Shown here: in pieces, positions 2,225 through 61,172 of the stretch
Position numbering within the stretch: position 1 is the first letter of the stretch
Layout of the letters: each line of letters starts with the position of its first letter
From: Quercus robur
Lineage: Eukaryota; Streptophyta; Magnoliopsida; Fagales; Fagaceae
DNA length: 64,000 bases
Assembly (NCBI RefSeq): GCF_932294415.1
Contig: NC_065535.1
Span: 81,613,862-81,677,861 of the forward strand
Direction: 5' to 3'
Position numbers and translations under genes: made by a program
The notes under the pieces: generated by a model
The model's input: the letters and a program-made list of their open reading frames with translations, nothing else
What the model was told of the DNA's origin: nothing
Database searches by the model: none

Positions 2225-2400
2225 CCTTGGAATGCTTATATTCTTAAGAAGTTTTATCATTGACTAGCCATGCTTGAAAAAATATGTATTGTATTGACTC
2301 ATGATAAAAATGCAACTAATTCGTTCTTGTCGGGCAAATTCTTTTTGTTCACTGTGTCTGGCTAATGGACAAGTGGGAAGCTAAGGAGATTCAAGCAGCT

Positions 2401-2985
2401 CTAAAATATTTCTAAGGACAGAAGTCTGCTTCTTGGTTTGATTGCTATCACCGAGCAGGCGGAAACCTTGCTAAAATATTCCTAAGGACAGAAGTCTGCT
2501 TCTCGGTTCGATTGCTATCACCGAGCAGGTGGAAACCTTACTAAAATATTTCTAAGGACAGAAGCCTACTCTTAGTTCGATTCCTGTCACCGAGCAGGTA
2601 GAAACCTTACTAAAATATTTCTAAGGACAGAAGTCTGCTTCTCGGTTCGATTCCTATCACCGAGCAGGTGGAAACCTTGCTAAAATATTCCTAAGGACAG
2701 AAGCCTGCTTCTCGGTTCAATTGCTATCACCGAGCAGGTGGAAACCTTACTAAAATATTTCTAAGGACAGAAGTCTGCTTCTCAGTTCGATTCCTATCAC
2801 CGAGCAGGTGGAAACCTTACTAAAATATTTCTAAGGACAGAAGTCTGCTTCTCGGTTCGATTGCTATCACTGAGCGGGTAGAAACCTCACTAAAACTTTT
2901 CTAAGGATACAACCCGACCTCTCGGTTCAATCCCCATCACCAAGTAGGCAAAAAACTCACTCGGAATTCCAGAAAGCACAATCCA
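2401..2985 (+). repeat. 70-bp tandem array in the 3' untranslated part of the Tat element
   Basis: Units begin with CTAAAATATTTCTAAGGACA at about 2401, 2471, 2541, 2610, 2680, 2750, 2820 and 2890, giving a period of about 70 bp and eight clear copies plus a decayed ninth. Each unit ends with a segment like CACCGAGCAGGTGGAAACCT. Tandem arrays downstream of integrase are known in Tat/Ogre elements and can seed satellite DNA. Confidence 0.9.
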
Positions 2986-3316
2986 ACTTCCCAGTTAAAC
3001 CCCTATCAACCAGCAAGGGAAAGCCGCGCATACATTTGTGGAAACTTTGAAACAAACACAAGAAAGGGAAAATATACATGCATCATCACAATTAATCGGC
3101 AAATAACACAAATTTGAAATCAAGCATGATAAATCAATTTTTTCATCACCAAAACCCGGTGAAATTTAAAATTCAAAAAACAAGCAAACTATTTAAAACC
3201 AGGAAATAATTGTCTAGTCGCCACAGCCTGGCGACTTGGGCAAACCAACTCGAAATTAAATAAAAAAAACTATAAAAATAAAAGCGAATAAAGGAAATAT
3301 AAAGCAAGTTCGGCAA

Positions 3317-5661
3317 TTAAGAAGAAAGTTCCACTGGCTGCGTCTCAAAGGTCATTTCGGCTGGGCGATGCTCGGGCACGAGGGGCTGGGTATGGGCATC
3401 TTCACCTTGGGGGCCTTCAGTGGGAGGGTTGCTGGTTACTTCTACCCCGATCATCTCCATATGGGCATCAATCTGCTCCACCTGCTCTTTCAAGCTATCT
3501 GTCTCCTCCTCTTCGTTTGGACCGGCTGAGTTATGGGCAGTAGGGATAGAGACTGGAACGGGGATCTGATCAGGGTCCCTAAGAGGGGAGTCCTCGGGCA
3601 TCCCTAGGGCTTGTAGAGCAGCCATCCAGCCCTCTCGGAAAGATAGCTGCCGAGTCTGCATAATCACCGGCTCCACGCTCTTCTCGGCATTGGCAAACCC
3701 CTCATCGTACCACTTACTCTCACATGCCTCAAGGGTAGCCCGCAGATCAGCAACCTCTTCAGATAGAGTGGAGTTTAGTCTTGCTGTCTCGGCCAGCTTC
3801 ATTTCTGTTTCATTTTGCCGCGCCACCAACTCCGCCAATTTCTTCTCTGCCAAAGCTTGGGACTTCTCCGCAGCAACAGCCCTCTTCTCGGCAGATTCGA
3901 CAATGTTCGCTTTCTCCTTAGCCGCTTCCACAGCCACTTCCTTACCGGCTTTCTCCCGACCAACTTCCTCGGTAAGATCCTTCACCCTCTCATTCAATAT
4001 ATGGGCTAGCTGGGTGGCCTGTTAAAGACAATGTTATCACGACTTAAAATTACAACAAATACAAAAATATAAGGACGTGCACGGAAGGAAAATGATAATA
4101 ACAAGAGTGTGAAGGAAGAGGACTAACCGCGATGGTGTGCCATTGGAGCCTTCTCCCCATGGACTCATCGGTTGCATCTGTAAATGCGCTCACGTCCACA
4201 GGCAGGAGGAGACCGTAGGCTAAGCTTTGGGCCACACGGCCCCCCTCACCCTTCTCCCAGCCCCGAACGCTTGCGCTAGCCGGAAGGGGCGTGCCGTCTA
4301 GCTCGTACGTTGGGTGCCACAGATGCGCCGGTCTGGAGGATGAGGCCACATTTGTTCCGACCTGGGCCGGTGGCTCCCGAATGGAAATACCCCGAGAAGG
4401 TTGAAGTGGAGTTTGAATTCAACCCTCTCCCGGGCCAGTGGAAGATTGATCGGTAAGCCTTTGCCTCTTTCATTGCCGACCAGGAGCAAGGGGAGGCGGG
4501 GGATGAACAGGAGGAGCCGGGACGTGCCCTTAGGAAGGAGTCTGCTGCTGAACGACCTGGCTTGCCCTAGGGATGAAACGGCTGACGGTCAAAGTCCTTC
4601 TGGTCACCATGTCTTCAGGAGTGGAATGGGTCCTGGAAGAGTCACTGGACTCCGCGGCTTCTTGCGCGGCTACTTGAACTGGATTCGCGGGTTCAGCTTG
4701 TACGGCTTCACACTGAATGGCCTCGTGAGCGCGTTCCCGAAGATGCCTGGATGCTACTTCGGCCGATTCATCCCTTATAGGCGCAAGTTCATCCAAACAG
4801 GTATACCATGGGCTAAGGTCACGAGCTTCTCCTACAGTGATGTTGGGGGGGAGGAAGTTCGCGTGCCGAACATCTATATAAGAAAGGAATGGGCTATCTA
4901 CAAGGAGGGCTTGGCTGAAAGGTTGCTAAGTGGAGTATACCGGGTCTACGCCGAGGATGAGGTGAGAAGCACGAAGTTGCTCGTCCCGGTGAATGAAGAT
5001 CTCAGACCTTAGCACAAAATTTAGGTCTCAGACGTGGACTGTTCTGATTTCCTGAGTGAACACTGAATCGTCTGCAGCAAAAAGAAAACGAATCAAGGTT
5101 AGAAGAAATAATGTATTTACAATTTTGGGAAACATGAGAAATTGAAGGTTAGGACGAACCAACTTCACGCCGTGACAAAGGGGGAGGGATGTCATCGGCA
5201 AACCAATTGCCGCGCACCTAGACAAATTCCCCAGCGGAATTCCTATTAGAGTCCGGCAAACAAGAAATCAGTCATACTCTGTTATCTCTAGTCTTTAAGT
5301 AATAGTTTGATTTCTTCTTTCCACAAAGGCTGTACATGTGGTTTATGTTGTGGTGGTCTAATTGCAAGCCGAACGTTTGGTTCAACTTACCCACACAACT
5401 CACTACCCGGTAAAAGTTGGGGGGAAGTTGGTCGGCACTCAACCCATAGTATCTAAGGGTGTTAATTAGAAGTGGGTCTATGGGAAACCTGACCCCGCCT
5501 TCTAAGACGAACATCAGTGGGAAAAAGGCCATGCCTGCCCCTCTATGGAGAGTTATTTCACTTTCGTGACAATAAGTCAACTCCACATCATCAGGGATGC
5601 TAAAGGCTCGCCTAAAAACGGCTAAGGGAGCTCCGGCGTTCAAAAGGTAAGCAAAACCCAT
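3317..5661 (-). mobile_element. Antisense ORF region of the Tat element
   Basis: Open reading segments run opposite to pol. The one at 5272-5661 resembles the Pfam 'putative gypsy type transposon' domain (FFPLMFVLEGGVRFPIDPLL, then the NFYRVVSCVGKLNQTF region). The segment at 4050-4349 carries YELDGTPLPASASVR and GEGGRVAQSLAYGLLLP, typical of the same antisense proteins. The segment at 3317-3997 is a Lys/Glu/Ala-rich coiled coil. In this lineage the extra antisense gene contains introns, so separate frames are expected. I did not try to assemble a product. Overlapping plus-strand reading frames here are probably shadows. Confidence 0.7.
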
Positions 5662-9820: not shown

Positions 9821-10671
9821 TATAAATTTATTCCCACCTCACACCTCGGCCTCGCACAACCTCAACATCCAATAATTTTAAAAAAATTAGTTTTATCTTA
9901 ACATTTTTCCAAACCTTTTTTTTTTATTTATTTTAAATTATTACCATTTAATTTAATCTCTCTCTCTCTCGGAGGTCTCTCTTTTTGTCTTTCCCTTTGG
10001 TTGCTCTGGGGAGTTTTCTACGATCTCTGGTGGGATTCGACGTTCAAGGTCTGTTTTTTCGATCTGGGTTTTGTTTGATTTTGCTATTTCTATCTTTGTA
10101 TGCATGAAATTTTTGTAATTTTTTTTGGAGTTCTCCTCTCTTTTTTATGGTTTTTTTTTCTTGCTACTAACTTGTTCAGATTGTTGAAAATTCTGGTCTT
10201 TGATGTGAATATTGATCTGGGTTTGTTAAAGTCTTTTTCTGCTCTTGGTTTCGATAGATGTGTGCAAAATCTATTTTTTGAGGTGGGATTCTGATCTGGG
10301 ATTGATGATTGATAGCTTAGTTTGATGTATGTTTTTAAATTTTGAAATGATGGGTTTTGCAATATTAAAAAAGATAAAAACAAGAAATTTTGTATTAATG
10401 TTGCAATGTATGTATTTCAATTTTGTAGATTTAGATTTCTCAGAGAGGGCCCACTTTTTAGAGACTCCATTTAGAACCCTAAATTCAAAATTTTGACTAC
10501 CATTTCTGATCAAATTTACTATTGAAAGACTGATCAAGTATCTTGGAACATCTTTGTATAATTCTTATCTTCTTTTGAAATGTTCATAATGTGTGCTTAG
10601 AATTGATTGTAAATATGATTTTTTTTTTTTTCCTGGTATTTGATCTCACCCAATCGTTGAATGTCTAGCAG
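9821..10671 (+). promoter_or_regulatory. KCS core promoter, 5' UTR and leader intron
   Basis: A TATA box (TATAAATTTA) lies at 9821-9830, so transcription should start near 9850. A pyrimidine patch (TCTCTCTCTC) follows at about 9958-9970. A leader intron is likely: donor CAAG|GTCTGT at 10048/10049 and acceptor CTAGCAG|GAAAGA ending at 10671, only 6 bases before the ATG. Boundaries are inferred from splice consensus. Confidence 0.6.
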
Positions 10672-10677
10672 GAAAGA

Positions 10678-12213
10678 ATGACAGAGACAAAATCAAACGT
10701 GTCCTTGAAACCGTCATCATCATCGCGAAATCTCCCTGATTTCAAAAAATCAATTAAACTAAAATATGTGAAGCTTGGTTACCATTACCTCATCACCCAT
10801 GGAATGTACCTCTTCATCACCCCTCTCGTAGTCCTAATTGCCGTGCAGCTCTCAACATTTTCATTCCAAGATCTTTATGATCTTTGGGAGCATCTCCAAT
10901 ACAATCTAATCTCCGTGATCATTTGCTCAACTCTCCTTGTTTTCTTGTCCACCGTGTACTTTGTCACTCGTCCTCGTCCTGTATACCTTGTCAATTTCTC
11001 TTGCTACAAGCCTGAAGAGTCTCGGAAATGCACCAAAAGGATCTTCATGGATCAATCTCGGCTGACTGGTACATTTTCAGATGAGAATCTTGAATTCCAG
11101 AAAAAGATCCTTGAGAGATCTGGCCTTGGTGATTCTACTTACCTGCCAGAGGCTGTTTTGAATATTCCTCCAAATCCCTCCATGAAAGAAGCTAGAAAAG
11201 AAGCTGAGGCTGTGATGTATGGTGCTATTGATGAGCTTTTTGCTAAGACCTCTGTCAAGCCAAAAGACATTGGCATTTTGGTTGTGAATTGCAGCTTGTT
11301 CAATCCGACCCCATCTCTTTCTGCCATGGTTATCAATCACTACAAGCTTCGGGGTAACATAGTTAGCTACAATCTGGGTGGGATGGGTTGCAGTGCAGGT
11401 CTTATTTCAATTGCACTTGCTAAAGATCTTCTTCAGGTCCATCCCAACTCCTATGCATTGGTCATCAGCATGGAGAACATCACTTTGAATTGGTATTTTG
11501 GAAATGACAGATCAAAGCTCGTTTCAAATTGCTTATTCCGAATGGGAGGAGCGGCAATACTACTTTCTAACAAAAGCTCTGATAGAAGAAGATCCAAATA
11601 CCAATTGGTACATGCTGTTCGTACCCACAAGGGTGCAGATGACAAGTGCTTTGGCTGCGTCACCCAAGAAGAAGACTCCAATGGGAAGGTTGGTGTTACG
11701 TTGTCAAAGGATCTTATGGCAGTTGCTGGTGATGCCCTGAAGACCAACATCACCACTTTGGGGCCTCTTGTTCTGCCAATGTCAGAACAGCTGCTATTCT
11801 TTGCTACATTGATTGGGAAAAAACTATTCAAGATGAAGATCAAGCCTTATATTCCAGATTTTAAACTAGCTTTTGAGCATTTCTGCATTCATGCTGGAGG
11901 AAGAGCTGTTTTGGATGAACTGGAGAAGAATTTGCAACTATCTGATTGGCATATGGAACCATCAAGGATGACACTCCACCGATTTGGCAACACCTCAAGC
12001 AGTTCTCTGTGGTATGAATTGGCTTATACAGAAGCAAAGGGAAGAATGAAGAAGGGAGATAGGACATGGCAAATAGCTTTTGGTTCAGGGTTTAAATGTA
12101 ACAGTGCTGTTTGGAAGGCTCTAAGGACCATAAACCCAGCAAAGGAGAAGAGCCCTTGGATGGATGAAATTCATAGTTTCCCAGTGGATGTTCCAAAGAT
12201 ATCGGCAATCTAA
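10678..12213 (+). CDS. KCS11-like: 3-ketoacyl-CoA synthase (KCS4/11/17-type)
   Basis: Intronless 511-residue condensing enzyme of very-long-chain fatty acid elongation. It joins malonyl-CoA to long-chain acyl-CoA in the ER membrane to supply waxes, suberin, sphingolipids and phospholipids. Two hydrophobic segments (about residues 43-59 and 77-96) precede the FAE1/CUT1-type condensing domain (about 95-385) and the ACP-synthase III C-terminal domain (about 400-485). The catalytic triad is visible: Cys238 in [10 protein letters not shown], His405 in FCIHAGG, Asn438 in [10 protein letters not shown]. The N-terminal RNLPDFKKS and the overall sequence are closest in my memory to Arabidopsis KCS11 and KCS4; which paralogue it matches would need a tree. 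Length is normal and the frame is intact. The start is the first ATG after the leader-intron acceptor. Confidence 0.95.
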
Positions 12214-33539: not shown

Positions 33540-33805
33540 AGAAGCAAACGGAAATTGAATTTCGGCAATCCAACTGACGAAATTTATGTCAGTTTCTCTC
33601 TCCACATTTTTCTTGAATTTCGGCAACATGGATACCGAAATACCAAAATTATATCAGATTTGTCAGTTTCTCTCTCTTCTTTTACTTGTATTTCGGCATC
33701 ACCAATACCGAAAATTGCATCTCTCCTCATTTAGCTAAAAAACTTTGCACAGTATACATAAACCTAATAAACTCTAATTTTTACAATATTGTGCCAAAAA
33801 GACTC
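33540..33805 (+). mobile_element. Terminal fragment of an older relative of the giant MULE
   Basis: Ends ACAATATTGTGCCAAAAAGACTC, close to the right terminus of the giant element (GCAATATTAACCCAAAAGACTC at 47407-47428). It shares with it the TCTCTCCTCA stretch and three TTTCGGCA...TACCGAAA palindromes (about 33555, 33615, 33690). It is clearly diverged and truncated on the left. Confidence 0.75.
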
Positions 33806-33845
33806 CAAGGAGACATGTTCTCTCGTATTCCCAGCAATGTTCATG

Positions 33846-34511
33846 GAGTCTTTTGGGTTAATATTGCAAAAACTGAAATTAATTTGCGTTATAGGTACTA
33901 TTGAAACTTATTTGGGATTTTGAGGAGAGAGACTGAATTTCGGTATCACCGTTGCCGAAATTCAGCCAAAAGTATGAGAGAGAAGATGCAAAAGGAGGAA
34001 AGAGAAAATGTTGAATTTCGGCAACGTGGTTACCGAAATTCGTCTGCCCAGTTCTGCTGCCCAACCCTCTCTCCTATGTGCTCGTGTGTGGAGTGCCCAG
34101 GGGAAAAAAAAAAAAAAAAAAAAAAAGGCAATTGCGGTAATGCAATTGCCGAAATAGGGGAGAAAAAGATTTTTTTTTTTTTTTTTTTTGGTAATTGTCG
34201 CCATGGCCATGCCGAAAAAAAAAAAAAAAAAAAAAGTGGTTCCAAAATATCTGAAAGAGTAAAAAAAAGTAATGTCCACAATATTTTTACAACATTTTCA
34301 CAATAAATCACATGTAATTAATTATTATTAGTTAAAAAAATTTGTGGCAAAGTAATTGTGGCAATAGGATTGCCGAAAATGTGAAAAAAAAAAAAAAAAA
34401 GAATTATGGCAATGGGATTGCCGAAAATGTGAGGAAAAGAAAAAAAAAGAAAAAAAAGAAAAAAAAAAAAGAGAATTGTGGCAATGGGATTGCCGAAAAT
34501 GTGAGGAAAAG

Positions 34512-34548
<37 letters not shown>

Positions 34549-34584
34549 TTGTGGCAATGGGATTGCCGAAAATGTGAGGAAAAG

Positions 34585-34617
<33 letters not shown>

Positions 34618-34722
34618 TTGTGGCAATTGGATTGCCGAAAATGTGAGGAAAAGAAAAAAAAAAAAGAAAAAAAAAGAAAAAAAGAATTGTGGCAATGGGA
34701 TTGCCGAAAATGTGAGGAAAAG

Positions 34723-34753
<31 letters not shown>

Positions 34754-34846
34754 ATTGTGGCAATGGGATTGCCGAAAATGTGAGGAAAAGAAAAAAAAAA
34801 AAAAATAGAATTGTGGCAATGGGATTGCCGAAAATGTGAGGAAAAG

Positions 34847-34881
<35 letters not shown>

Positions 34882-35369
34882 TTGTGGCAATTGGATTGCC
34901 GAAAATGTGAGGAAAAGAAAAAAAAAAAAAAAAAAATTGTGGCAATGGGATTGCCGAAAATGTGAGGAAAAGAAAAAAAAAAAAAAAAAAAAAGAATTGT
35001 GGCAATGGGATTGCCGAAAATGTGAGGAAAAGAAAAAAAAAAAAAAAAAAAAAAGAATTGTGGCAATGGGATTGCCGAAAATGTGAGGAAAAAAAAAAAA
35101 AAAAAAAAAAGAGAATTGTGGTAATGGGATTGCCGAAAATGTGAGGAAAAGAAAAAAAAAAAAAAAATTTGGCAATGGGATTGCCGAAAATGTGAGGAAA
35201 AGAAAAAAAAAAAAAAAAGTGGTTCCAAAATATCTAAAAGAGTAAAAAAAAAGTGTAATGTCCACAATATTTTTACAACATTTTCACAATAAATCATATG
35301 TAATTAATTATTATTAGTTAAAAAAATTTGTGGCAAAGTAATTGTGTCAATTGGATTGCCGAAAATGTG

Positions 35370-35410
<41 letters not shown>

Positions 35411-35784
35411 TTGTGGCAATGGGATTGCCGAAAATGTGAGGAAAAGAAAAAAAAAAAAAAAAAAAGAATTGTGGCAATGGGATTGCCGAAAATGTAAGAA
35501 AAAAAAAAAAAAAAAAGAGAATTGTGGCAATGGGATTGCCGAAAATGTGAGGAAAAGAAAAAAAAAAAAAAAGTGGTTCCAAAATATCTAAAAGAGTAAA
35601 AAAAAAGTGTAATGTCCACAATATTTTTACAACATTTTTACAATAAATCACATGTAATTAATTATTATTAGTTAAAAAAATTTGTGGCAAAGTAATTGTG
35701 GCACTTGGATTGCCGAAAATGTGAGGAAAAAAAAAAAAAAAAAGAGAATTGTGGCAATGGGATTGCCGAAAATGTGAGGACAAG

Positions 35785-35815
<31 letters not shown>

Positions 35816-36630
35816 ATTGTGGCAATGGGTTTGCCGAAAATGTGAGGAAAAAAAAAAAAAAAAAAAAAGAAGAAGAGAATTGTGGCAATGGGATTGCCGA
35901 AAATGTGAGGAAAAGAAAAAAAAAAAAAGAGAATTGTGGCAATGGGATTGCCGAAAATGTGAAAAAAAAAAAAAAAAAAAAAAACAGAATTGTGGCAATG
36001 GGTTTGCCGAAAATTTGAGGAAAAGAAAAAAAAAAAAAAAAAAAAAGAGAATTGTGGCAATGGGATTGCCGAAAATGTGAGGAAAAAAAAAAAAAAAAGA
36101 ATTAGGCGAATTTTTTTTGGTAATTGTGGCAATGGTATTGCCGAAATAGATGAATTTTTTTTTGGGATAATTGTGGCAATGTCATTGCCGAAAATGGGGA
36201 GGGGAATAATGGAATGGAATTGTGGCAATGACATTGCTGAAATAGGAGAAAAAACATTTGTTCCCATTGCCGAAATAGAGGAGAGAGATATAAACAAAGT
36301 ACGCATATTATTCTTTCAATATTTTTTTGACTGAACCAGTTTGGTTTGTCATGTTCTTTTAGAAATAGATAAGGATATATTCAAGTACCCTATCTGGTAC
36401 ATTGATTCTTATTCTAAAGTGCATGCTGTAAACAAAAACAAAAAGTACATAGATTCTTATAGAAGAAAAAAATGACTGATGTGCACGCTGTAAACAAAAA
36501 AAACAAAGAAAGTATATAGATTCTTACAATAGAAAAGAAAAAATAATTAATGTGCACACTGTGAACCAAAAAAAACAAAGAAAGTACATAGATTCTTACA
36601 AAATGACTGATGTGCACGCTGTAACATCAT
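33846..36630 (+). repeat. Left terminal inverted repeat of the giant MULE (hairpin minisatellite)
   Basis: Outer 260 bp unique, with two strong palindromes (TGAATTTCGG...CCGAAATTCA near 33931-33961; GAATTTCGGCAAC...GTTACCGAAATTC near 34013-34041). Then about 25 units of roughly 50-75 bp, each with GGCAATGGGATTGCCGAAAA, TGTGAGGAAAAG and an A-run of about 10-35. The units form three blocks (about 14, 4 and 7), each opened by a ~145-bp spacer containing GTGGTTCCAAAATATCT (34235, 35218, 35573). Inner part 36310-36630 carries a second repeat with GTGCACGCTGTAAAC and TACATAGATTCTTA. Confidence 0.9.
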
Positions 36631-36766
36631 AACATATGGACCATATTGCACAAACTAACAATATGGTCCAACTCCTAAAAACATAATTAAAAAAAAAAAA
36701 AAAAAAAAAACAACAGTCCAACCAATCCACTGAAGTAGATTGAATACTTATGTTGGGTCATTTAGT

Positions 36767-39347
36767 TTAGCCACTAGTGGAGCCAGCCACAGTTCGAGTG
36801 GGGCATGTTCTTCTATTATGGCCTTCTTGCCTACAGAGACTGCACAATGGCCTTGGTTGATGCTCTGCCCCTTCGTCCATTTCATTTCGAAGCCAAGTTG
36901 TTCTTGGTCGACCTTTTTCACGGCGCAGCTTGACATTAGGATACAAGACCGGGAAATTAGGCTCATTCCAATGTACACTGTCTGGAACCATGCGAAATCT
37001 AGGTGCATAACAAGCAACTTGTTCTTCCAAATGGTAGCAACGGTCGATATATCGCATTGCAGAGATGCCTTGATATTTACACACAGCAATGACATGTGAG
37101 CATGGAATCTTATAAACCTGCCATTTTTGACAACTACAAGTGTTCTGCCTCAAATTTACCTCATGACGATGATTACCCCTATATGCAGAGTTAGGGTTTA
37201 TTGGTGTTCTGACTTCAAACAAACCATCTTCATGACTGAACACAATAACTGAATGCTTTGGTGCCTTTTTTTCCCATTTATTGAATTTATTTTTTGCATA
37301 GGCCGTAATGCGTTCACCGGTAGTAACCTCTGCACATGCCTTAGTATACCGATCGGCAAAGTAGGCGACACAACGATAGTATGTAAGTTCAACTAATGCA
37401 GTTATGGGCAGATTTCTAGCACTCTTTAGAATTCCGTTGAAGCTTTCAGACAAGTTTGTGGTCATTGCCCCATAACGATGTCCACCATCGTATGCTAACG
37501 TCCACTTTTCCACTGGTATTTCCCTTAAATACTTCTCACCATCTGCACTTAATTGAGTAATTCTATCCCTAGTGATTTGATACTTTCGTAACTGATTCTC
37601 CATGCCTGCCCACATTACCATAGCCTTCAAGTTTTTATTCCCAATTTGTTGATTGAAATTGCTAGCCACATGGCGAAGGCAAAAACGATGATACCAACGT
37701 GTCGATTGACATATAGTCTGTATCGCTGCCATTATACCAGGATGACGATCAGATATGACACATAACCCTTCTCGATTAGTGACATTAATCTGAATACAAC
37801 GCAAAAACCAATACCAGCTATCATCAGTTTCCTTCTCCACAATGGCAAAGGCAAGTGGAAAAAGTCTGTTGTCAACATCCCACGTTGATGCAATCAATAA
37901 CGTACCTTTGTACTTACCATATAGGAAAGTTCCATCAATACTAATTACTGGCCTACAATGTTGAAAACCTTCAATTGATGGACCAAAAGCCCAGAACACT
38001 CTCTCGAATATCGCACAGCCTGGCATAGTAGCAGGTATTGTTCTCCAAATAACCCTGCTGCCCGGGTTTGAATCAGTCAAAGCTTTCAACCATTTTGGCA
38101 ATAATTGGTAAGATTTGTCCCAATCACCAAACGCTCTACCAATTGCTTTCTCTTTTGCCTCCCACACCTTAAAATAAGAAGGCCTGTATTGGTACTTATT
38201 GTAAAGAGTCTGTTGAAGTGAAGCAATCTTTATGGTTGGATCATTTTTGACAACATCCCTCAACTCTTTCTCAATAACATGGGTGTCTAATTGCTCGTGA
38301 TCTTGTGTGAGAGTGGACTCTGTACATGTGTGTGGACCATTGTATTTCCTAACCTCAAACAACCCATATGTAGCCCGGAAGCATGCTCGAAGACGCCAAG
38401 AACAATTTTTGCACCTTACAGACCAACATTCTGGATCTGACTCTCTTACACAAAATGTTTGGTTCCTCTTGATGTGATAGCGTTTAACAGCAGCTTGTAG
38501 TTCATCCTTATCGGCAAAAAGCAAGCCCACATAAAACTCTTGGGTAGGGTCCCAAATACTCTGAGTGGGATTTTCAAATGGTAAGGTTGGATCAATCATA
38601 TTATCCCACGTGTTCTGTGAAAAGCTTAGTGATGAAGGTTGATGGACTGCCATAGTTGGACTGCTTTCATGATTACCTTCATTTAGAGGCTCTTGTTCAT
38701 CTCCAATATCATCAAGGACCTCATCGTCATCAAGTTGGTCATCACTATCCATGGTCCGCATCCTTTCTGATAATGTATGGACCGCATTTTCAGTAGTAGC
38801 AGCTATGCGATGTGTATCATTGGGATCATTAGCAGCTCTCTGAGTGGCGGTTTGGTCATACTGAGTTTCAAACTCAAAACAAGTAGTCTCTTGTGTGACA
38901 TGCTCAGTTGGATTATCATAGTCAGCATCACTGTTGTTCATTGGCCGAGAAGGAACATGTTGGTCCTCAATTGCAACATGGGTATATGGAGCATGATAGT
39001 CAGCACCGCCAATGTTGATTGGGGAATGACTCTGCACCTACAAATCCATATTGGCGGTCTAACATATCGAATATTGCATTGACACCATTATCATCTGCTA
39101 CCAAAACTTGCTGGTAAGTCACAGGATGTGGATGACATTGAAATGGAAATCTATATCAAATAGTCAATTTTGAATCTTCTCTGTTTATATGAAGCGTGGA
39201 TGCTACTCCATCACATAGATCTTCAAATGTAACACCCCGGCTTAATGGAAGCATAGAAGGAGGTGGCCCTTCGTAATAAACCCCATTTTCTCCATGTTTA
39301 ATTATTCCACTGGAATGGATGAGAAAAATGAACAACTTTTCTGCCAT
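36767..39347 (-). CDS. mudrA-like: MURA-type Mutator transposase
   Basis: The main frame (36767-39037) is open for 756 residues. It holds a MuDR N-terminal domain (about 165-245), the MULE transposase domain with candidate catalytic D368 (VISIDGTFL), D430 (VISDRH) and E531 (NLSESFNG), a SWIM zinc finger (C634, C636, C646, H648), and a C-terminal CCHC knuckle (C732, C735, H740, C745). Upstream, 39156-39347 encodes the N-terminus (MAEKLFIFLIHSSGIIKHGE). It stops at TGA 39156-39158, after which the same frame continues with YRFPFQCHPHPVTYQQ. The main frame is then reached by a frame change near 39040-39130, either a short intron or a frameshift. So the catalytic core is intact, but the annotated N-terminus is interrupted by one stop. 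The enzyme cuts and joins MULE ends in the nucleus. Confidence 0.9.
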
Positions 39348-39359
39348 CTACATTAAAAC

Positions 39360-40310
39360 ATAATAATAGTATTAATAAATTAACACAACACAACCATTAC
39401 AATGCAATACAAGAAGGTAATCCATTAAAAATATTCACTGATAATAATAGTATTAAACATACGTGTATATTATAGGCTAACAAACTAAGTATTTCTTTAA
39501 GGAAATATACGTCAAATTTGATATTTAGGCAAGAATTCATTAATAAATAATGTAAAACATATCATACAAATCAGTTCATATTGCAAAACACATAATACAG
39601 AAACAAGATTTGCATGAACAAATAATTTAACAAAAACAAGATTTTCATGCTTAGCTATGCCCCTAAAACATATCAACATGAATATTATAAAAAGAAAAGT
39701 AACTACTTAAGAAATATAACTCACCTTCTAAGAGATAACGAACGGATAGATATTTGCAAGTGTTGTTACTTATAGTTGTTTGTAGAATATTTGGCACGCA
39801 TGATTTGAAAATGGTTGGTAAAATTATGAGGGGAACAAGAGTGGAGAAGAAGGTTGATGGAATTTATAGGGGAAAAAGAGTAAAAAAGAAGAACTATGAA
39901 AATTTCTGTGACGTTAGTGCTGTTAAAATAGGATGCAAGTTTCATATCAGTTAAATTCAGTGACATTATAGGTACTTTTACCATAAAAGAATATGACAAA
40001 CAAAACTCCTTCGGTCAAAAAAATACTGAAAGAATCTCTGCAATGCCACTGCAATGCCATTGTACTTGAATTTATCCTTATAGGGTACTTTTTTTTATAT
40101 GCGTACTTTTTTTTATCTCTCTCTCCTCTATTTCGCAACAAAAAAAAAACTGAAAGAATCTCTGCAATGCCACAAATACTGAAAAGAATCTCTGCAATGT
40201 CATTGTACTTGAATCTATCCTTATAGGATACTTTTTTTCATATGCGTACTTTTTTTTATATCTCTCTCCTCTATTTCGGCAATGCCATTGCCACAAACCA
40301 AATGAGATAA
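39360..40310. other. Intergenic region of the MULE, proximal part
   Basis: Upstream region of the transposase gene (promoter expected here on the minus strand). From about 39960 it contains scrambled arm-derived sequence: AAAAGAATATGACAAAC matching 45152 onward, and two copies of GAATCTCTGCAATGCCA. No gene seen. Confidence 0.55.
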
Positions 40311-40840
40311 GGAGTTGAAGTGATTGGTTGATTGACTCTTTGTTTTATTTTTTTTACTTTCTTTGCTTTTTTTTGTTCACAGCGTGCACGTAAGAATATA
40401 TGTACTTTCTTTGTTTGTTTTTTTGTTTGTTTACAGCGTGCACATCAATCAATTTTTTTTCTTCTATATTGTAAAAATCTATGTACTTTCTTTGCTTTTT
40501 TGGGTTTACAGTGTACACATCAATCATTTTTTTCTTCGGTATTGTAAGAATCTATATACTTTATTGTTGTTTACAGTATGCACATCAATCATTTTTTTCT
40601 TCTATATTGTAAGAATCTACGTACTTTCTTTACTTTTTTTTGGTTTATAGTGTGCACATCAATCATTTTTTCTTTTCTATTGTAAGAATCTATATACTTT
40701 CTTTGTTTTTTTTTGTTTACAACGTGCACATCAGTCATTTTTTTTATTCTATAAGAATTTATGTACTTTTTTTTGCAACGTGCACTTTAGAATAAGAATC
40801 AATGTACGAGAGGCTGTGGAAGAGAGGCTGTGGAGAATAA
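40310..40840 (+). repeat. Internal copy of the inner-arm minisatellite
   Basis: Starts GAGATAAGGAGTTGAAGTGA and TTGGTTGATTGA, as does the inner edge of the right arm at 44672-44705 (GAGATGAGGAGTTGAGGTGA). It then has about seven ~60-bp units of ACAGCGTGCACATCAATCAT, TATTGTAAGAATCTATGTAC and TTTCTTTG. The orientation is the same as the right arm. It ends near GTGCACTTTAGAATAAGAAT, also present in the arms. Confidence 0.85.
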
Positions 40841-41263
40841 GAATCTATGTACTTCTTTTTTGTCTTTGACACTTTTACGAGGGTTTGGAAGAGAGGCTGT
40901 GGAGATTGAAAATAAAAATGTACACCACAGTAGCCATCATGCAAAGGACAAAAGATTTCCCATTTATTGAAGTTTGACACTTTTTTTATTCCACCTATTA
41001 TGCGCCTACAGTTATGGCTACACATAGATTCTATGTCGGATTAGGAATGGACAATTATAGTAAATAGATGTATGATTAGATTAATTGGGCACTAATTTCA
41101 AATGCGAAAAAATAAGTACACATTTCTTGTTTTCACAAAGGTCTTATGGTTAGTAGTATAATGTGCTATGTATACTATCTACGCATAATATTTTTTGCTA
41201 CAATGATGCATAAATAATGATAATACTTTAATATATTTTTAATAAACAGTCATTTTACATTGT

Positions 41264-43868
41264 TTAGTGATTGCGACGTTGGGGTACATTCAATTTCTGC
41301 TGTGTTCCACAACATGGAGGATGCCTATTTTCTCGTTGTGGGTACCTTCGTGCTTGCACAGGACTTCTCCCCATGCGCCTCGGCTGTGTTCTAATATCAA
41401 TCTCTGTTTGATAATTACCACAGTCGTCATCTTCATTATCTGAAGATACCTCCATATCTTGGCTATCTTCTGCATCTTCCCCACTGTCCTCATTTGAGGC
41501 ATCTTCCTCAGAGTCTGTTACGGAAGCCTCTTCCTCGGAGTTTGGAGCACATGCCCATGTATTTTGTGGCGTGCAAAAATCACCAACATGAGGGGGTGGT
41601 TGGGAAGGTTGTGGTGTGCAGAAATCATAGTTGTCTTGGCTATCTTGGCCATAATTGTATTGCCCAGCATAAGATGGAGGTGGCGATGGGTGATAAGAGG
41701 AAGGTGTTGAATTAGGTTGGGGATAATGGTCATAACTAAACAAACCCTCCAATCCTTGTCCTATGGAAGTGGATGATCCAATCTGTTGATATAAATTCAT
41801 GCAATACTCGTTCACATTAATTGGATTATACTCACTGAAGGTGGTTGGCTCATTACCAGCAAATGTTGATGGCCCAGCTTGGGTAGAGCTGTACATATTG
41901 TGTTGTGCGGAGGTGGATGGTCCAGCATCATCATTTCCACATTGTCCACGTTGTGCAGAGGTGGACGAGTGGGTTTCAGTATAGGTTTGCGGCTGTCTTC
42001 CTTGGCGCCTTTGTCGTCGCCCGAAGGTTGTCACCCTTTCAGTAGGGACGGAGGAAATATTTGCTTCCATTGACAACTTCAGTCGGGTAAGGCCCTCTAC
42101 TATTAGTGGAAGGACTTGTTGTGCTGTGAGATCATTCCTCTGTTGGTTTGCAACAGCTAAATTTAACATATTATTGACCTCAGTTTGCTGCCGCAAAAAA
42201 AGGAAAATAACATTTATTAGTGCAATATTATTGAAAAAACGAAAATAATAATTTGTTATCAATATTAGTGCAGTATTTGGATATGTAAATAACTTGTTAT
42301 CAATATTAGTGCAATATTATTGAAAAAGCTAAAATAATAACCTGGTACATATGGGCAGCCGCCTCTGGTGTTGTGAATAGGTGACCATTTTGCTGGTACC
42401 ATGTTGCGTAGTCCACACTTGAATCAAAATGGTCATCTCCAACTAGAAGTTCAGCTCGCATGTTCCAACGCCGGTAGTATTGGTCATGCTGCATTCTCCA
42501 ATTGACAGTGGACTTTCCTGTCAACTTTACACAATGCACGGATTTATCCAAATTGTCGGTAGGCCACCTTGGACATCTTTGCAACAACCCAAACTGTTGC
42601 ATGACTCTTTCTGGGTGGTAATACTCTACAATTTGGAAGCACAACAATGGCGCTGTTGTAGTCCATATATTTCTTTCTGCAAGACACCATGGATGCATAT
42701 AGTTATCGTATGGTGTCCAAACAACCTGCAATTCCAATTACAATAACTATGTTATAATCAATCAAGACAATAATATAACTAGTAAATTAACCATTGATGC
42801 ATTGTGATATATTACCTGTTTATTATTATGTGTATCGTGATTAGAACGGTACGCACGTAAAACATGTGTTGGTGTGTGAGTAAACGTTCTCTTGGTATCC
42901 CACCTATACACAATTAATGATTGTCATACAATATTTAGGATTTGGAAGTATCAAGGATTACAAAATTATATAGAAATAAAAAGTAAATATTATACCTGCA
43001 ACCGTATGGGTCGTCGCCATTTAAATTTACTGGATTTATTGGAATTGGGGTCAGATATGGAAGATGCTCCCACGCCCATAATTGTATTATGAAAACAGGA
43101 CCTGCAATCTCTGTGCTTTTTTTAATAGCAGCAGTACACAGCTCTTTATAAAGGTAAGCAAGTGTAGCACTACCCCAGCTATATTCCCCAGCTACACCAA
43201 AGTCCTCTAACAGCTTGAGAAAGCAGCAATGCAATCTACTTTGGCTCTTATTTCCAAATAGTAAAGCCAAAACCTGAAACATGTATGCCCTAGCATGCTG
43301 TTGGGTTGTTATAGCATTGGCACCCTCTGGTAGGTTTGAGAATGTATCCCTTACCCATGTTATTTTAAGGCCACCAAAATTCAATGCTGTTGCAGGTGGT
43401 GTCACCCCAAGTAAATCACGACATTCTGTACTCCAAATCAAATTTATTGGCCCGCACACTGCATTGCCATCAATAGGCAATCCTGTAGAGTTATAGTCAT
43501 TTCACAATTAGGTAGGTGAAATGTATGGGTACTAGATTGCCATCGCTCTACCAAAGAAGTGATAAGACTCCAATCAATATCTATATGTGGTAGGCGGGTA
43601 ACACGGTATAATCTACATTGATACAAATATGGGGTGATACGCTCGCCTAACTGCGGGAGGGGTGCAAACGATTGGGGTCGCACTCGTAAGGTGGAAACCT
43701 GAAATTGAATTTTTTTTAAAAAATACAATGTTATATTGCTAATGTTTAAATTATTTTCATGTAAATTGAATAATTGTAGAGATTATTAGGACATTAATAA
43801 ATTTGGATCTTGCAACGTACATTGCCTTCCATTGCGTCATTAGAGATGTGATATTGTTGTTGCTCCAT
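41264..43868 (-). pseudogene. Plant mobile domain (PMD) gene carried by the MULE, probably broken by one small deletion
   Basis: Five inferred exons: 43821-43868, 42996-43698, 42816-42903, 42342-42725, 41264-42187, all GT/AG with consistent phases, about 716 codons. Exons 2-4 match the aminotransferase-like plant mobile domain (Pfam PMD family, as in Arabidopsis MAIN/MAIL1): LVERWQSSTHTFHLPNCEMT, LPIDGNAVCG, VVWTPYDNY and WCLAERNIWTTTAPLLCF. The last exon is a disordered Ser/Pro/Gln tail with an acidic stretch and a basic end. Around 43480 the segment normally linking TITLQD to LPIDG is missing and the frame changes, consistent with a deletion of about 20 bp. PMD proteins occur both as host genes in silencing and meristem pathways and inside MULE and gypsy elements. 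Whether the cargo helps the element is unknown. Confidence 0.8.
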
Positions 43869-43879
43869 TTCAAATATAT

Positions 43880-44660
43880 CCTTCAATAAAATTGAAAGAA
43901 ACTCAAATAAAGGATTTATGAAGCAAAATTTTTAATAATAATAATAATAGTTTTAGCAAAAATAATCATACACACAATAATTAGTATTAACTATAATTGA
44001 GATACTTACCACAATTGTGATGCCAACTAAAAGAGTGAGAATTATAGAGTGATACTTGCAAAAAAAAAAAAAAAAAAACCCACAATCAGATAACCATAAA
44101 AAATAATTCATTAATCTAAAATTTGAATAACAAGAACAAGAACAAGAACAACAACAACAACAACAACAACAACAATTATCATAATCATAGACATACAAAT
44201 AATATTAATTACAATTACAACAATACATAATATTTTACAATGTATTAGCTTTTAATATTTACAAAGCACATGTTTATACAATAATAATAAATCTGTTAAT
44301 TTCTAGAGCTATAAGTTAATAAGCAAAGCAAAAAAAACTTACATTAACAAAAAACTTACAATCTTTAGTTGTGGCACACTGAAACAAAGTAAAAGAGTAA
44401 CTTTGCAACCTGAGGAATTGTGATGAGATGCAATTCTAGTTCACACTTCCCTTATCTTTTATTACCAATTGAACAATAAAAAGACAAAAAAGAATCACGT
44501 GGTGTGGTAGGCGTGGCAAAATATAGATTCTGCAGAGAATAAAAATCAGATGAGATGAGAAGCAGACAAGAAAGAATCATGTTGGAGATGAGATGAGGAG
44601 TAGACAACAAAGAATCACGTTGGACATTTAGGCGTAGTAAAAAATATTTTCTGCAGAGAA
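43880..44660. other. PMD gene upstream region
   Basis: Promoter-side DNA of the PMD gene inside the MULE. AT-rich, with an AAC-type microsatellite at about 44145-44176 and a duplicated GAATCACG(T)TGG segment near 44490 and 44608. No other gene seen. Confidence 0.5.
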
Positions 44661-44719
44661 TAAAAATCAAATGAGATGAGGAGTTGAGGTGACTGGTTGA
44701 TTGAATCTTTGTTTTCTTT

Positions 44720-46147
44720 GGTTTACTTTCTTTGCTTTTTTTTGTTTATAGCGTACATGTAAGAATTTATGTACTTTCTTTGCTTTTTTTTTGTTTACAG
44801 CATGCACATCAATCATTTTTTTTCTTCCGTAGTGTAAGAATATATGTACTTTTTTTTTGTTTTTTTGGTTTACTGTGTGCACATCAATAATTTTTTTTCT
44901 TCTATATTGTAAGAATCTATGTACTTTCTTTGCTTTTTTTGGTTTACAGTGTGCACATCAATCATTTTTTCTTTTCTATTGTAAGAATCTGTATACTTTC
45001 TTTGTTTTTTTGTTTACAGCGTGCACATCAGTCATTTTTTTCTTCTATAAGAATCTATGTACTTTTTTTGTTTTTTTTACAGCGTGTACTTTAAAAAAAG
45101 ATTCAATGTAGCAGATAGTGTACTTGAATCTATCCTTATCTATTTCTAAAAGAATATGACAAACCAAACTGGTTCAGTCAAAAAAATATTGAAAGAATAA
45201 TATGCGTACTTTTTTTATATCTCTCTCCTCTATTTCGGCAATGGGAACAAATTTTTTTTCTCCTATTTCGGCAATGCCATTGTCACAAATCCATTCCACA
45301 TTTTATTTTTTAAAGAAATGATAGGTACATATAATTTTTACAATATTTTAACAACAAATTTTAAGTGGAGGTTGTTATTGTTAGATTAAAAAAGTAATAT
45401 AGTGATAAATTCAAATTTGAACTAATAATAATTAATTACCTGTGATTTATTGTGAAAATATTATAAAAATATTGTGAGCCTAACACTTTTTCTTTTTTTT
45501 TAATTCCTCCCCAGATTTTGGCAACCACCTTTTTTTTAAAAACAATTTCACCTATTTCAGCAATGTTATTGCCACAATTCCATTCCATTATTCCCCTCCC
45601 CATTTTCGGCAATGACATTGCCACAATTATCCCAAAAAAAAAATCATCTATTTCGGCAATACCATTGCCACAATTACCAAAAAAAATTCGCCTAATTCTT
45701 TTTTTTTTTTCCTCACATTTTCGGCAATCCCATTGCCACAATTCTTTTTTTTTTTTTTTTTTTTTTTTTCCACACATTTTCGGCAATCCCATTGCCACAA
45801 TTCTTTTTTTTTTTTTTTTTTTTTTTTCTTTTTTTTCACATTTTCGGCAATCCAATTGCCACAATTACTTTGTCACAAATTTTTTTAACTAATAATAATT
45901 AATTACATGTGATTTATTGTAAAAATGTTGTAAAAATATTGTGGACATTACATTTTTTTTTTACTCTTTTAGATATTTTGGAACCACTTTTTTTTTTTTT
46001 TCTTTTCCTCACATTTTCGGCAATCCCATTGCCACAATTCTTTTTTTTTTTTTTTTTTCCTTACATTTTCGGCAATCCCATTGCCACAATTCTTTTTCTT
46101 TTTTTTTTTTTCTTTTCCTCACATTTTCGGCAATCCCATTGCCACAA

Positions 46148-46182
<35 letters not shown>

Positions 46183-46435
46183 CACATTTTCGGCAATCCA
46201 ATTGCCACAATTACTTTGCCACAAATTTTTTTAACTAATAATAATTAATTACATGTGATTTATTGTGAAAATGTTGTAAAAATATTGTGGACATTACACT
46301 TTTTTTTTTACTCTTTTAGATATTTTGGAACCACTTTTTTTATTTTTTTCTTTTCCTCACATTTTCGGCAATCCCATTGCCAAATTTTTTTTTTAATTTT
46401 TTTATTTTCCTCACATTTTCGGCAATCCCATTACC

Positions 46436-46467
<32 letters not shown>

Positions 46468-46802
46468 CTTTCCTCACATTTTCGGCAATCCCATTGCCAC
46501 AATTCTTTTTTTTTTTTTTTTTTTTCTTTTCCTCACATTTTCGGCAATCCCATTGCCACAATTCTTTTTTTTTTTTTTTTTTTTTTCTTTTCCTCACATT
46601 TTCGGCAATCCCATTGCCACAATTCTCTTTTTTTTTTTTTCTTTTTTTTTTCTTTTCCTCACATTTTCGGCAATCCCATTGCCACAATTCATTTTTTTTT
46701 TTTTTTTCTTTTCCTCACATTTTCGGCAATCCAATTGCCACAATTCTCTTTTTTTCTTTTTTCTTTTTTTTCCTCACATTTTCGGCAATCCCATTGCCAC
46801 AA

Positions 46803-46836
<34 letters not shown>

Positions 46837-47428
46837 CTTTTCCTCACATTTTCGGCAATCCCATTGCCATAATTTTTTTTTTTTTTTTTCACATTTTCGG
46901 CAATCCTATTGCCACAATTACTTTGCCACAAATTTTTTTAACTAATAATAATTAATTACATGTGATTTATTGTGAAAATGTTGTAAAAATATTGTGGACA
47001 TTACTTTTTTTTACTCTTTCAGATATTTTGGAACCACTTTTTTTTTTATTTTTTTATTTTCGGCATGGCCATGGCGACAATTACCAAAAAAAAAAAAAAA
47101 AAAAAAAAATCTTTTTCTCCCCTATTTCGGCAATTGCATTACCGCAATTGCCTTTTTTTTTTTTTTTTTTCCCCTGGGCACTCCACACACGAGCACATAG
47201 GAGAGAGGGTTGGGCAGCAGAACTGGGCAGACGAATTTCGGTAACCACGTTGCCGAAATTCAACATTTTCTCTTTCCTCCTTTTGCATCTTCTCTCTCAT
47301 ACTTTTGGCTGAATTTCGGCAACGGTGATACCGAAATTCAGTCTCTCTCCTCAAAATCCCAAATAAGTTTCAATAGTACCTATAACGCAAATTAATTTCA
47401 GTTTTTGCAATATTAACCCAAAAGACTC
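44720..47428 (-). repeat. Right terminal inverted repeat of the giant MULE (hairpin minisatellite)
   Basis: Mirror image of the left arm. From inside out: about six units with GTGCACATCAATCAT and AAGAATCTATGTACTTTC (44740-45110), a divergent GGCAAT...ATTGCC zone (45230-45690), and then blocks of about 3, 4 and 10 canonical units separated by the same three spacers (AAATATTGTGGACATTACA at about 45940, 46283 and 46987). The unique outer 260 bp ends at 47428. The plus strand is T/C-rich here and A/G-rich in the left arm. Confidence 0.9.
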
Positions 47429-47437
47429 ATGTTCATG

Positions 47438-58503: not shown

Positions 58504-59171
58504 TTTTCTTCTCTCTCCTTTTCTGTATTTTTTCACATCTTCGGATTTGGCACCATAATAAGACCTTACAAGGGTCTTATTTTTATAACCAAATCTCACT
58601 TGAAAGATAAACGTTTTTGGCTTTGCAGTTCTGTAATGGGGAGTGAGATTTGGGTGTTTTTGGTTTAGGGAAGAGACGGGTCTGATGGGGTTGGGGTTTA
58701 TTGTTTTAGTTTGTATCCCTATTTTATTATCAATGTCTATAAACTTACATGAGATTGGGCTGCCTAGATTAATATTCATGGTTCCTTTGCAGGTAATGTA
58801 TGATGCTCAGACTTCATGCTGAAGTAAGATCATATATTGCTATCAGTGGACTTTGTTACTTGCATATTAGCAATAAATAAAGAGTACATTTTGTTAGACA
58901 CCTTTTGATTATATCAACATTAGTCACGTTTATCATTGAGTCTATATACCCTGTTTCTTTTGGTTTGCACCATGGCACTATGTTGCGCATGTAAATGCTT
59001 CTCTTTTTGAAAGCTAGTTTTTTTTCCCAAAAAAAAAAAAAAAAAGGTTTGATATTGCTCCAAACTCCAGAGGGCTTTACCTAGCTGTATAGTGTACTAC
59101 TACTAGTCCATTCTGTCTTCACAAACCATATGAGCTTAAAATTTTGAAATTGCAGTGAGCTCACATAGTCA
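58504..59171. other. PPR upstream region
   Basis: AT-rich, with an A-run at 59029-59045. No TATA element stands out. Acceptor-like TTTGCAG near 58789-58795 and AATTGCAG near 59149-59156 would allow a spliced leader from the segment at 58290-58503. Confidence 0.4.
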
Positions 59172-61172
59172 ATGCTCTTCCAACACAACAACGTTGGGTT
59201 ATTCCACTTTATTTCCCGCCAATTCCTTTCAAAGCCACACCTTTTCTCAAGCATCTCTAGCAGCCCCAGGCTGAGCAAGACGTCATGCATTCAATACCTG
59301 AAGAACTGCGAATCCATGACCCATCTCAAACAAATCCAGACCCAGATCTTCCGGGTTGGTCTCCACCAAAACCATGACACCCTCAACAAACTCATGGTCT
59401 TCTGCACTGACCCATCTCTTGGGAACTTGCACTACGCTGAGAAAATCTTCAATTATATCCAAAACCCGAGCTTGTTCATATACAACGTGTTGATGAAAGC
59501 ATTTGCAAAGAAGGGTAGCTTTAGAAAATCCATTTGGGTCTTTGGCCAATTGAGAAAACATGGTCTTTGGCCCGACAATTTTACGTACCCATATGCCTTC
59601 AAAGCGATTGGGTGTTTAGGTGAGTCTTGGAAGGGTGCGAAGGTTCATGGGTTTGTGGTGAAGACTGGGCTTGAGTTTGATACCTACGTTTGTAACTCGC
59701 TTATGGACATGTATGCTGAACTGGGCAAGGTTGAGAATTTCAAGAAGCTGTTCGATGAAATGCCTGAGAGAGACAAGGTGTCTTGGAACGTTATGATTTC
59801 AGGCTATGTTAGGCGTAGGAGGTTTGAGGATGCTGTGAATGTTTTTTGGCAAATGCGAAGGGAGAGCAATGAGAAGCCTGATGAAGCCACAGTTGTAAGC
59901 ACTCTGTCAGCTTGTACAACTTTGAAAAATTTGGAGCTTGGTAAGGAAATTCACGGTTATGTTGCAAATGAGCTTGGATTTACTACTGTCATTGGGAATG
60001 CTTTGTTAGACATGTATGCTAAGTGTGGCTGTTTAAGTGTAGCCCGGCAAATTTTTGATGAGATGCATACAAAGAATGTGATTTGTTGGACCAGTATGGT
60101 GTCTGGGTATGTGAACTGTGGTGAGCTGGATGAAGCTAGAAAGTTGTTTGAGAAGAGTCCCACTCGGGATATAGTTCTTTGGACAGCTATGATTAATGGG
60201 TATGTGCAGTTTAACCGTTTTGATGAGGCGGTGGCTCTATTTCGAGAGATGCAAATTAGAAGGGTTAAACCAGATAAATTCACCGTGGTTGCTCTCCTCA
60301 CAGGTTGTGCTCAGTTGGGAGCTCTAGAGCAAGGAAAATGGATTCATGGATACATAGATGAGAATAGAATTTCGGTGGATACAGTCGTCGGCACTTCTCT
60401 TATAGAAATGCATGCAAAATGTGGGTGTGTGGAGAAGTCTTTGGACATTTTCTATGAGTTAAAGGAAAAAGATACAGCCTCTTGGACTTCAATCATTTGT
60501 GCGCTTGCCATGAATGGTAAGACAAGCAAAGCACTTGAGTTGTTCTTAGAGATGAAACAAGCTGGGGCCACACCTGATGATATCACCTTTATTGGTGTTT
60601 TAAGCGCTTGTGGTCATGGAGGATTGGTTGAGGAAGGCCGCCAGTTCTTTAATTCAATGACAAAGCAGTATGAGATTGAGCCGAAACTAGAACACTATGG
60701 GTGTCTGATTGACCTTCTTGGTCGAGCTGGAAAGTTGGACGAGGCAGAGAAATTGATAGAAGAAGTCCCTAAAGAAAATAGTGAGATCTTAGTTCCACTT
60801 TATGGTTCTTTGCTTAGTGCTTGCAGAATCCATGGCGATGTTGAGATGGGTGAACAGGTGGCTGAGTGGCTGGTGAAAATTGAGTCAAGTGATTCCAGTA
60901 TTCATACGCTCCTTGCCAATATTTATGCCTCTGCTGACAGATGGGAAGATGTAACAAAAGTGAGAAGGAAAATGAAAGATTTTGGTGTCAAAAAGGTGCC
61001 TGGATGTAGTTCAATTGAGGTTAATGGGATTGTCCATGAGTTTGTTGTTGGAGATCCATCTCATTCAGAAATGAGAGAAATATATTCCATGTTAGATAGA
61101 CTGTCAAGACCTTTGTTGGATTCAGAAGAGAGTGAGATTGAAAGAGAAATCCTGGTTCCAGTTTGTTGGTGA
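59172..61172 (+). CDS. Pentatricopeptide repeat protein, PLS class, E+ subgroup (At1g31430-like)
   Basis: Intronless 666-residue organelle RNA-binding protein. A targeting-like N-terminus (MLFQHNNVGLFHFISRQFLS, Ser/Arg/Phe-rich) is followed by P, L and S repeats from about residue 70 (for example DKVSWNVMISGYVRRRRFED, DIVLWTAMINGYVQFNRFDE). The C-terminus has E and E+ motifs (SLLSACRIHGDVEMGEQVAE, NIYASADRWEDVTKVRRKMK, then PGCSSIEVNGIVHEF). No DYW domain is present. The sequence matches my memory of Arabidopsis At1g31430 along most of its length. E/E+ PPR proteins usually specify single C-to-U editing sites in plastid or mitochondrial transcripts and recruit a DYW partner in trans. The frame is intact. 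A downstream Met could be used, but the first ATG gives the targeting sequence. Confidence 0.92.
   Translation: MLFQHNNVGLFHFISRQFLSKPHLFSSISSSPRLSKTSCIQYLKNCESMTHLKQIQTQIFRVGLHQNHDTLNKLMVFCTDPSLGNLHYAEKIFNYIQNPSLFIYNVLMKAFAKKGSFRKSIWVFGQLRKHGLWPDNFTYPYAFKAIGCLGESWKGAKVHGFVVKTGLEFDTYVCNSLMDMYAELGKVENFKKLFDEMPERDKVSWNVMISGYVRRRRFEDAVNVFWQMRRESNEKPDEATVVSTLSACTTLKNLELGKEIHGYVANELGFTTVIGNALLDMYAKCGCLSVARQIFDEMHTKNVICWTSMVSGYVNCGELDEARKLFEKSPTRDIVLWTAMINGYVQFNRFDEAVALFREMQIRRVKPDKFTVVALLTGCAQLGALEQGKWIHGYIDENRISVDTVVGTSLIEMHAKCGCVEKSLDIFYELKEKDTASWTSIICALAMNGKTSKALELFLEMKQAGATPDDITFIGVLSACGHGGLVEEGRQFFNSMTKQYEIEPKLEHYGCLIDLLGRAGKLDEAEKLIEEVPKENSEILVPLYGSLLSACRIHGDVEMGEQVAEWLVKIESSDSSIHTLLANIYASADRWEDVTKVRRKMKDFGVKKVPGCSSIEVNGIVHEFVVGDPSHSEMREIYSMLDRLSRPLLDSEESEIEREILVPVCW

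Follow-up and report, generated by a model that had tools for sequence, protein, structure and literature searches.

What does a plant mobile domain (PMD) gene do inside a transposon? The question is raised by a 64,000-nt stretch of the Quercus robur genome (contig NC_065535.1, positions 81,613,862 to 81,677,861; hereafter the window), in which a first-pass annotation had recognized a Mutator-like element (MULE) carrying a MURA transposase gene and a PMD gene. The role of PMD, both in transposons and in MAIN/MAIL1, is described in the literature as unknown. The element is a young member of an oak family of MULEs with terminal inverted repeats (TIR-MULEs) that have long arms; the long form of this family bears both MURA and PMD. 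As the best overall explanation, in which we place a little less than even confidence, we propose that MURA was supplied in trans and that PMD may be an anti-silencing factor binding to repeat arrays in the arms.

The element spans 13,583 bp (33846-47428) and is bounded at both ends by ATGTTCATG, a perfect 9-bp target site duplication (TSD) of the length expected for TIR-MULEs (9-11 bp). Its termini, GAGTCTTTTGGG...CCCAAAAGACTC, are exactly inverted, as had been annotated, and the outer 276 nt (33846-34121 versus 47153-47428) are 100% complementary. The 260 bp originally given for the TIRs, however, was an understatement: imperfect inverted arrays run inward from the outer TIR to approximately 36604 and 44664, giving arms of ~2.75 kb each, long as TIR-MULE arms should be. 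Both genes lie on the minus strand, with PMD upstream of MURA, and a middle arm-like block that is ~83-85% identical to the inner part of the right arm separates them (Table 1). Arm-type repeats precede each gene, the inner repeats of the right arm lying before PMD and the middle block before MURA.

The relatives of this element were analyzed by searching its 261-bp end against the 785.7-Mb genome (42 contigs); since 40 of 537 candidates were scored, the counts are lower bounds. The end has at least 41 matches. Thirty-three of them fall in 16 two-ended elements, namely the window copy and 15 others, together with an extra right end from one tandem duplication. The other eight are single ends; two of these were followed for 1.5 kb to either side, where no partner end was seen. 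Of the two-ended copies, 14 of 16 have a TSD of 9-10 bp that is mismatched at one position at most (perfect in 12), and none was found for two short copies. As expected, then, the termini recur in other copies that have TSDs of their own, and we regard it as practically certain that the family is mobile.

Eight of the two-ended elements, including the window copy, are long (12.7-23.3 kb). In seven of these, MURA and PMD are both present, arranged in one order on a single strand and separated in every case by the middle block; across the genes, the DNA of these copies is ~94-98.5% identical to that of the window copy. This common layout rules out separate insertions or chance pairing of the arms. 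Neither gene was seen in the eighth long element (14.1 kb) or in any of the eight short ones (1.3-3.7 kb, one partly masked). The view of one mobile unit with PMD inside therefore stands for seven of the eight long copies, but PMD is not always present between the arms. Six of the short elements are fully covered by sequence of the window element, the listed matches all lying within the arms; another is covered to 87%, and the last is the partly masked one. The two ends of the window copy show no differences at 255 outer positions, as do those of one short copy, while those of the other seven long copies differ at 7-12. In a tree of ends, the window copy clusters with short copies and not with the other long ones.

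A composite of two elements that lost their middle ends was also considered and rejected. Since the middle block is oriented like the right arm alone, joining two whole elements in a simple fusion would not account for it; a partial duplicate of the right arm would. An extra TIR-like block oriented as one end also occurs in the multiple-long-TIR MULEs of Ferguson and Jiang (2012, PMC3310237). The oak block, however, is partial and internal, and ends (~40829) some 3.8 kb from the start of the right arm (~44664), whereas the two TIRs on one side of a tandem-TIR MULE lie <600 bp apart in that work.

The element had been called complete. This holds for its DNA but not for its genes, both of which are broken in the window copy. 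The frame still open in MURA (36767-39037) runs for 756 codons, with its earliest Met at residue 33, and matches the Pfam domains DBD_Tnp_Mut (2.2e-9), MULE (2.2e-17) and SWIM (3.3e-10), all above cut-off, and a zinc knuckle below cut-off. When it is compared with the C2 copy (34.40 Mb), the MURA of which is open over 911 codons, an in-frame TGA is found at codon 64 counted from the ATG at 39347, followed by a 155-nt deletion near 39030; the window copy thus lacks the intact transposase frame of an autonomous MULE. For PMD, the exons of which were inferred from splice sites, two exon-bearing window frames match Pfam PMD (6.4e-27, 95.1 bits, and 8.8e-14, 51.9 bits; cut-off 34.9); no Pfam match was obtained for the frame containing the last exon. 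In a sister copy, the joined exons match PF10536 with 245 bits over profile positions 3-347 of 347. Exon 2 of the window PMD has a frameshifting 19-nt deletion near 43487, which is common to the window copy and C2 and missing from the other six gene sets. From these lesions it is most likely that the window element was moved by a transposase made elsewhere, and that it came from a parent in which PMD was already broken.

Table 1. Features of the oak MULE in window coordinates.
Feature	Positions	Strand	Basis
TSD, left copy (ATGTTCATG)	33837..33845		direct sequence reading
TSD, right copy (ATGTTCATG)	47429..47437		direct sequence reading
Left arm, with outer TIR at 33846-34121, an array of tandem palindromes and, on the inner side, repeats of 72-75 bp	33846..36604	+	
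MURA transposase gene	36767..39347	-	Pfam domains, comparison with sister copies
Middle arm-like block, upstream of MURA, right-arm orientation	40017..40829	-	
PMD gene, five inferred exons (43868-43821, 43698-42996, 42903-42816, 42725-42342, 42187-41264)	41264..43868	-	
Right arm, with outer TIR at 47153-47428, an array of tandem palindromes and, on the inner side, repeats upstream of PMD	44664..47428	-	

The sister copies showed several arrangements of their own. A tandem partial duplication of a long copy (L009-L011, joined 301-23224) has its TSD, CACTGGCATG, three times, and its second unit starts inside MURA, ~20 bp past the second TSD. L026 has two short copies (301-2043 and 2091-3853) separated by 47 bp, and each is flanked by a TSD of its own. 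Over 255 bp, the left end of either copy is identical to the right end of its neighbour, giving the pair a mirror-image look. A 313-codon frame with zinc-knuckle-like motifs is present twice in the 14.1-kb member (L023-L024), which has both ends and a TSD and also carries 39 arm motifs. The 23.3-kb copy (L014-L016) has long opposite-strand frames inside MURA and a PMD intron, which are probably nested retroelements.

In the window itself, the diverged right end of a related element (33617-33805; nhmmer E 6.3e-13) lies ~30 bp left of the insertion, and the young copy was therefore inserted beside an old relative. The element is inside neither of the two likely host genes, which encode a 514-aa 3-ketoacyl-CoA synthase-type protein (10669-12213; FAE1_CUT1_RppA 8.6e-144) and a 667-aa PPR protein (59169-61172). 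Positions 389-1339 are the remains of a retroelement, in which RNase H and integrase zinc-binding domains are found.

The arms are built as arrays of one palindrome, GGCAATNNNATTGCC; the arm repeat reads TTGTGGCAATGGGATTGCCGAAAATG. Allowing at most one mismatch, the element has 52 sites of this palindrome, 41 of them exact; the left arm accounts for 29, the right arm for 22 and the middle block for 1. The remainder of the window has one more, and simulated arms contained 0.05 on average (20 runs); the counts are of copies in a tandem array, not of independent matches. The motifs of the window copy share one direction within each arm, with the longer consensus TTGTGGCAATGGGATTGCCGAAAATGTGAGG. 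Elsewhere in the family, the direction of some motifs could not be assigned, and division at the midpoint gave mixed directions for the 14.1-kb copy and several of the short copies. The 15 stretches of copies hold 6-54 motifs each, with none in the flanks, which were covered for 300 bp on either side, or 49 bp at one end. In the four long copies examined, the sole motif between the PMD start and the MURA end sits in the middle block. Within the group of ends to which the window copy belongs, most 3-bp spacers read GGG; the other group adds many GCC or GGC.

A dense array of a single short motif in non-coding DNA is also a feature of the VANC system. VANC21 binds YAGTATTAY motifs that are dense and in one orientation in the non-coding DNA of VANDAL21, and VANC proteins cause methylation loss there (Hosaka et al. 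2017, PMC5735166). VANDAL21 and the oak family both encode a second protein beside the transposase, and both have dense, same-orientation short motifs in non-coding DNA, the arrays of which vary between subfamilies (PMC5735166). They differ in the motif itself, in the location of the oak arrays inside long TIRs, and in the second protein: VANC has DUF1985 and DUF287, whereas the oak protein is PMD by Pfam. A structure model of a PMD relative resembles VANC21 (PDB 9lnj), a DNA-bound anti-silencing protein. The fold of the oak protein itself is taken from that relative, and PMD quite probably shares the VANC fold. A search of PDB sequences with PMD gave no match, either with a single sequence (E<=0.1) or with a profile (E<=10). 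The best DUF1985 score among the PMD relatives seen was 33.8 bits, below the cut-off of 35.1. The best sequence bridge seen between PMD and DUF1985 is the Senna tora gene model P0245, in which two PMD units stand in tandem next to a MULE domain.

Given a second gene with a relative modelled as having the VANC fold, and large motif arrays, with arm-type repeats upstream of both genes, the reading we prefer is that PMD would bind the arrays and counter silencing in trans. MURA from other copies would cut at the GAGTCTTTTGGG termini and insert the element with a 9-10 bp duplication, as the anatomy suggests. The PMD protein would be a sequence-specific DNA-binding factor of the VANC kind that recognizes the palindrome arrays of the arms, counteracts host silencing of the MURA and PMD promoters, and acts in trans on all copies of the family, including gene-less ones. 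That PMD binds the arms and lifts silencing is in itself a tentative proposition, for which we would claim about one chance in three.

Changes among the copies bear on whether PMD was maintained. Among the PMD changes that follow groups of copies, 12 alter the amino acid and 15 are silent, versus 131 (8 stops) and 49 for private changes (p 0.006). The groups were picked from the commonest groupings in the same data, and this comparison leaves out the shared changes that fitted no group: 14 in PMD (5 altering the amino acid, 4 giving stops and 5 silent) and 23 in MURA. Over all shared sites, these included, the crude ratio for PMD is 0.29 versus 0.74 (p 0.009), with recurrent C-to-T changes inflating the shared changes. 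These facts weakly suggest that PMD was coding while the family spread, and we lean towards the view that it was kept by selection for some time.

Several observations weigh against the anti-silencing explanation. Among the eight gene sets read (seven elements and the tandem second set), MURA is open throughout in one and PMD in none, and the youngest long copy has a broken PMD; PMD is therefore at least not needed in cis. MURA gives no selection signal, either for group-fitting changes (11:5 versus 131:47; p 0.77) or over all shared sites (0.60 versus 0.75; p 0.56), and that of PMD comes from exon 5 (p 0.009), with none from the core, exons 1-4 (p 0.45). The selection test is therefore weak. 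A second model, of the truncated Lithocarpus gene model P0122 (mean pLDDT 64), returned no structure-search rows at E<=0.001, and VANC21 was missing from both of its structure-search lists. The oak PMD has no DUF1985 match at E<=1, and DUF7745 is also matched by 7 of 30 PMD proteins (best 5.6e-5). Finally, the array may consist of MURA binding sites, since short gene-less copies keep it.

We regard this last point as the main rival: the array would be a binding platform for the transposase, and PMD an auxiliary transposition factor or a protein acting at another step, not an anti-silencer. Maize MURA binds a motif in the TIRs (PMC3310237), the gene-less short copies retain 6-26 motifs a stretch (six fully read stretches with seven elements, six of them with a TSD), and repeats of the related form TTTCGG...CCGAAA are also present in the terminal 276 bp. 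The arrays look far bigger than a terminal binding site would require, however, the single motif in the block upstream of MURA was present in all four copies checked, and the modelled fold points to an anti-silencing protein. We consider this alternative unlikely, at about one chance in four.

PMD may instead be a passenger, a host gene carried without use. MULEs are able to capture genes (PMC5418596), and the lack of an intact PMD and the movement of the young window copy with a frameshifted one are in line with this idea. Against it, all five PMD exons are traceable in seven elements (two with insertions), the group changes in PMD fall less often at amino-acid sites than private ones, and PMD adjoins MURA in gene models of several other eudicots. 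It is thus rather improbable that PMD is mere cargo.

Those gene models came from protein searches that started from MURA and PMD and, in the final one, from a fused model, with up to 120 proteins listed per search. Forty of the 292 fetched proteins match both MURA and PMD, including models of Vitis, Senna, Lupinus, Heliosperma and Actinidia; the count is no survey, and gene models can fuse neighbouring genes. MURA comes first in 38 of the 40, PMD in one, and one is mixed, the oak order being opposite to that of the majority. The closest MURA protein is 98% identical, and the next five, from Lithocarpus, Castanea and Quercus, are 69-88% identical. In a MURA tree made by a quick method (6 of 125 rows dropped), the retained PMD-fused MURAs stand at four places apart from the oak MURA. 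The PMD tree took in MAIN-like proteins of non-Arabidopsis plants, and 10 of 63 matched rows, too short or too spread, were dropped. In it, Fagaceae PMDs form their own clade (100/100), adjoining a Rhododendron PMD-phosphatase protein (88/84) and not joined by the Quercus robur MAIN-like protein P0128; it does not separate one capture from several among MULE-linked PMDs. That PMD acts as a decoy, competing with host MAIN/MAIL1-PP7L and not binding the element, is the least credible of the roles considered. It is weakly opposed by this lack of grouping with P0128 and by the absence of enrichment in the element of the DOWN motif CATGCAGTTT linked to host PMD-dependent promoters (no exact site, and one of the six window sites at <=1 mismatch).

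Anti-silencing by transposon-encoded PMD has been suggested before (PMC5418596, PMC8616336); the additions made here are the fold link, the weak DUF1985 homology and the motif array. Ikeda et al. (2017, PMC5418596) described a rice MULE that contains PMD and, from grasses and Amborella, proteins in which PMD is fused to the transposase, and saw these as two captures. Those elements resemble the oak family in combining a MULE transposase and PMD within one DNA transposon. The oak family, however, has two separate genes, each behind an arm-like block, resides in a eudicot tree, and has ~2.75-kb arms made of motif arrays (compare PMC5418596). Since PMD is a separate gene upstream of MURA and fusions are found elsewhere in the MURA tree, the oak family would count as a fresh variation on PMD-carrying MULEs. 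In the open-licence literature searched, we found neither a link between DUF1985 and PMD nor a joint treatment of Quercus, Mutator and the plant mobile domain. MuDR of maize has two genes, of which the second is mudrB, and long TIRs with promoters in them. The oak element is similar in its two genes and long TIRs, with arm-like repeats upstream of both genes, but differs in carrying PMD instead of mudrB, in having its genes on one strand rather than convergent, and in its size of 13.6 kb.

A multi-copy eudicot family with PMD as a separate gene contrasts with the statement that PMD in eudicots is mainly the genic PMD-C (Nicolau 2020). More broadly, it is possible, although we put it below an even chance, that PMD and VANC (DUF1985) belong to one superfamily of array-binding DNA proteins used by MULEs against silencing, with MAIN and MAIL1 as domesticated anti-silencers. 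The fold link to a solved DNA-bound anti-silencing protein, together with arms built on a single palindrome, makes the function of PMD open to a direct binding test. If the proposal is true, the oak PMD-MULE would let the factor, PMD, and its target array in the arms be read side by side.

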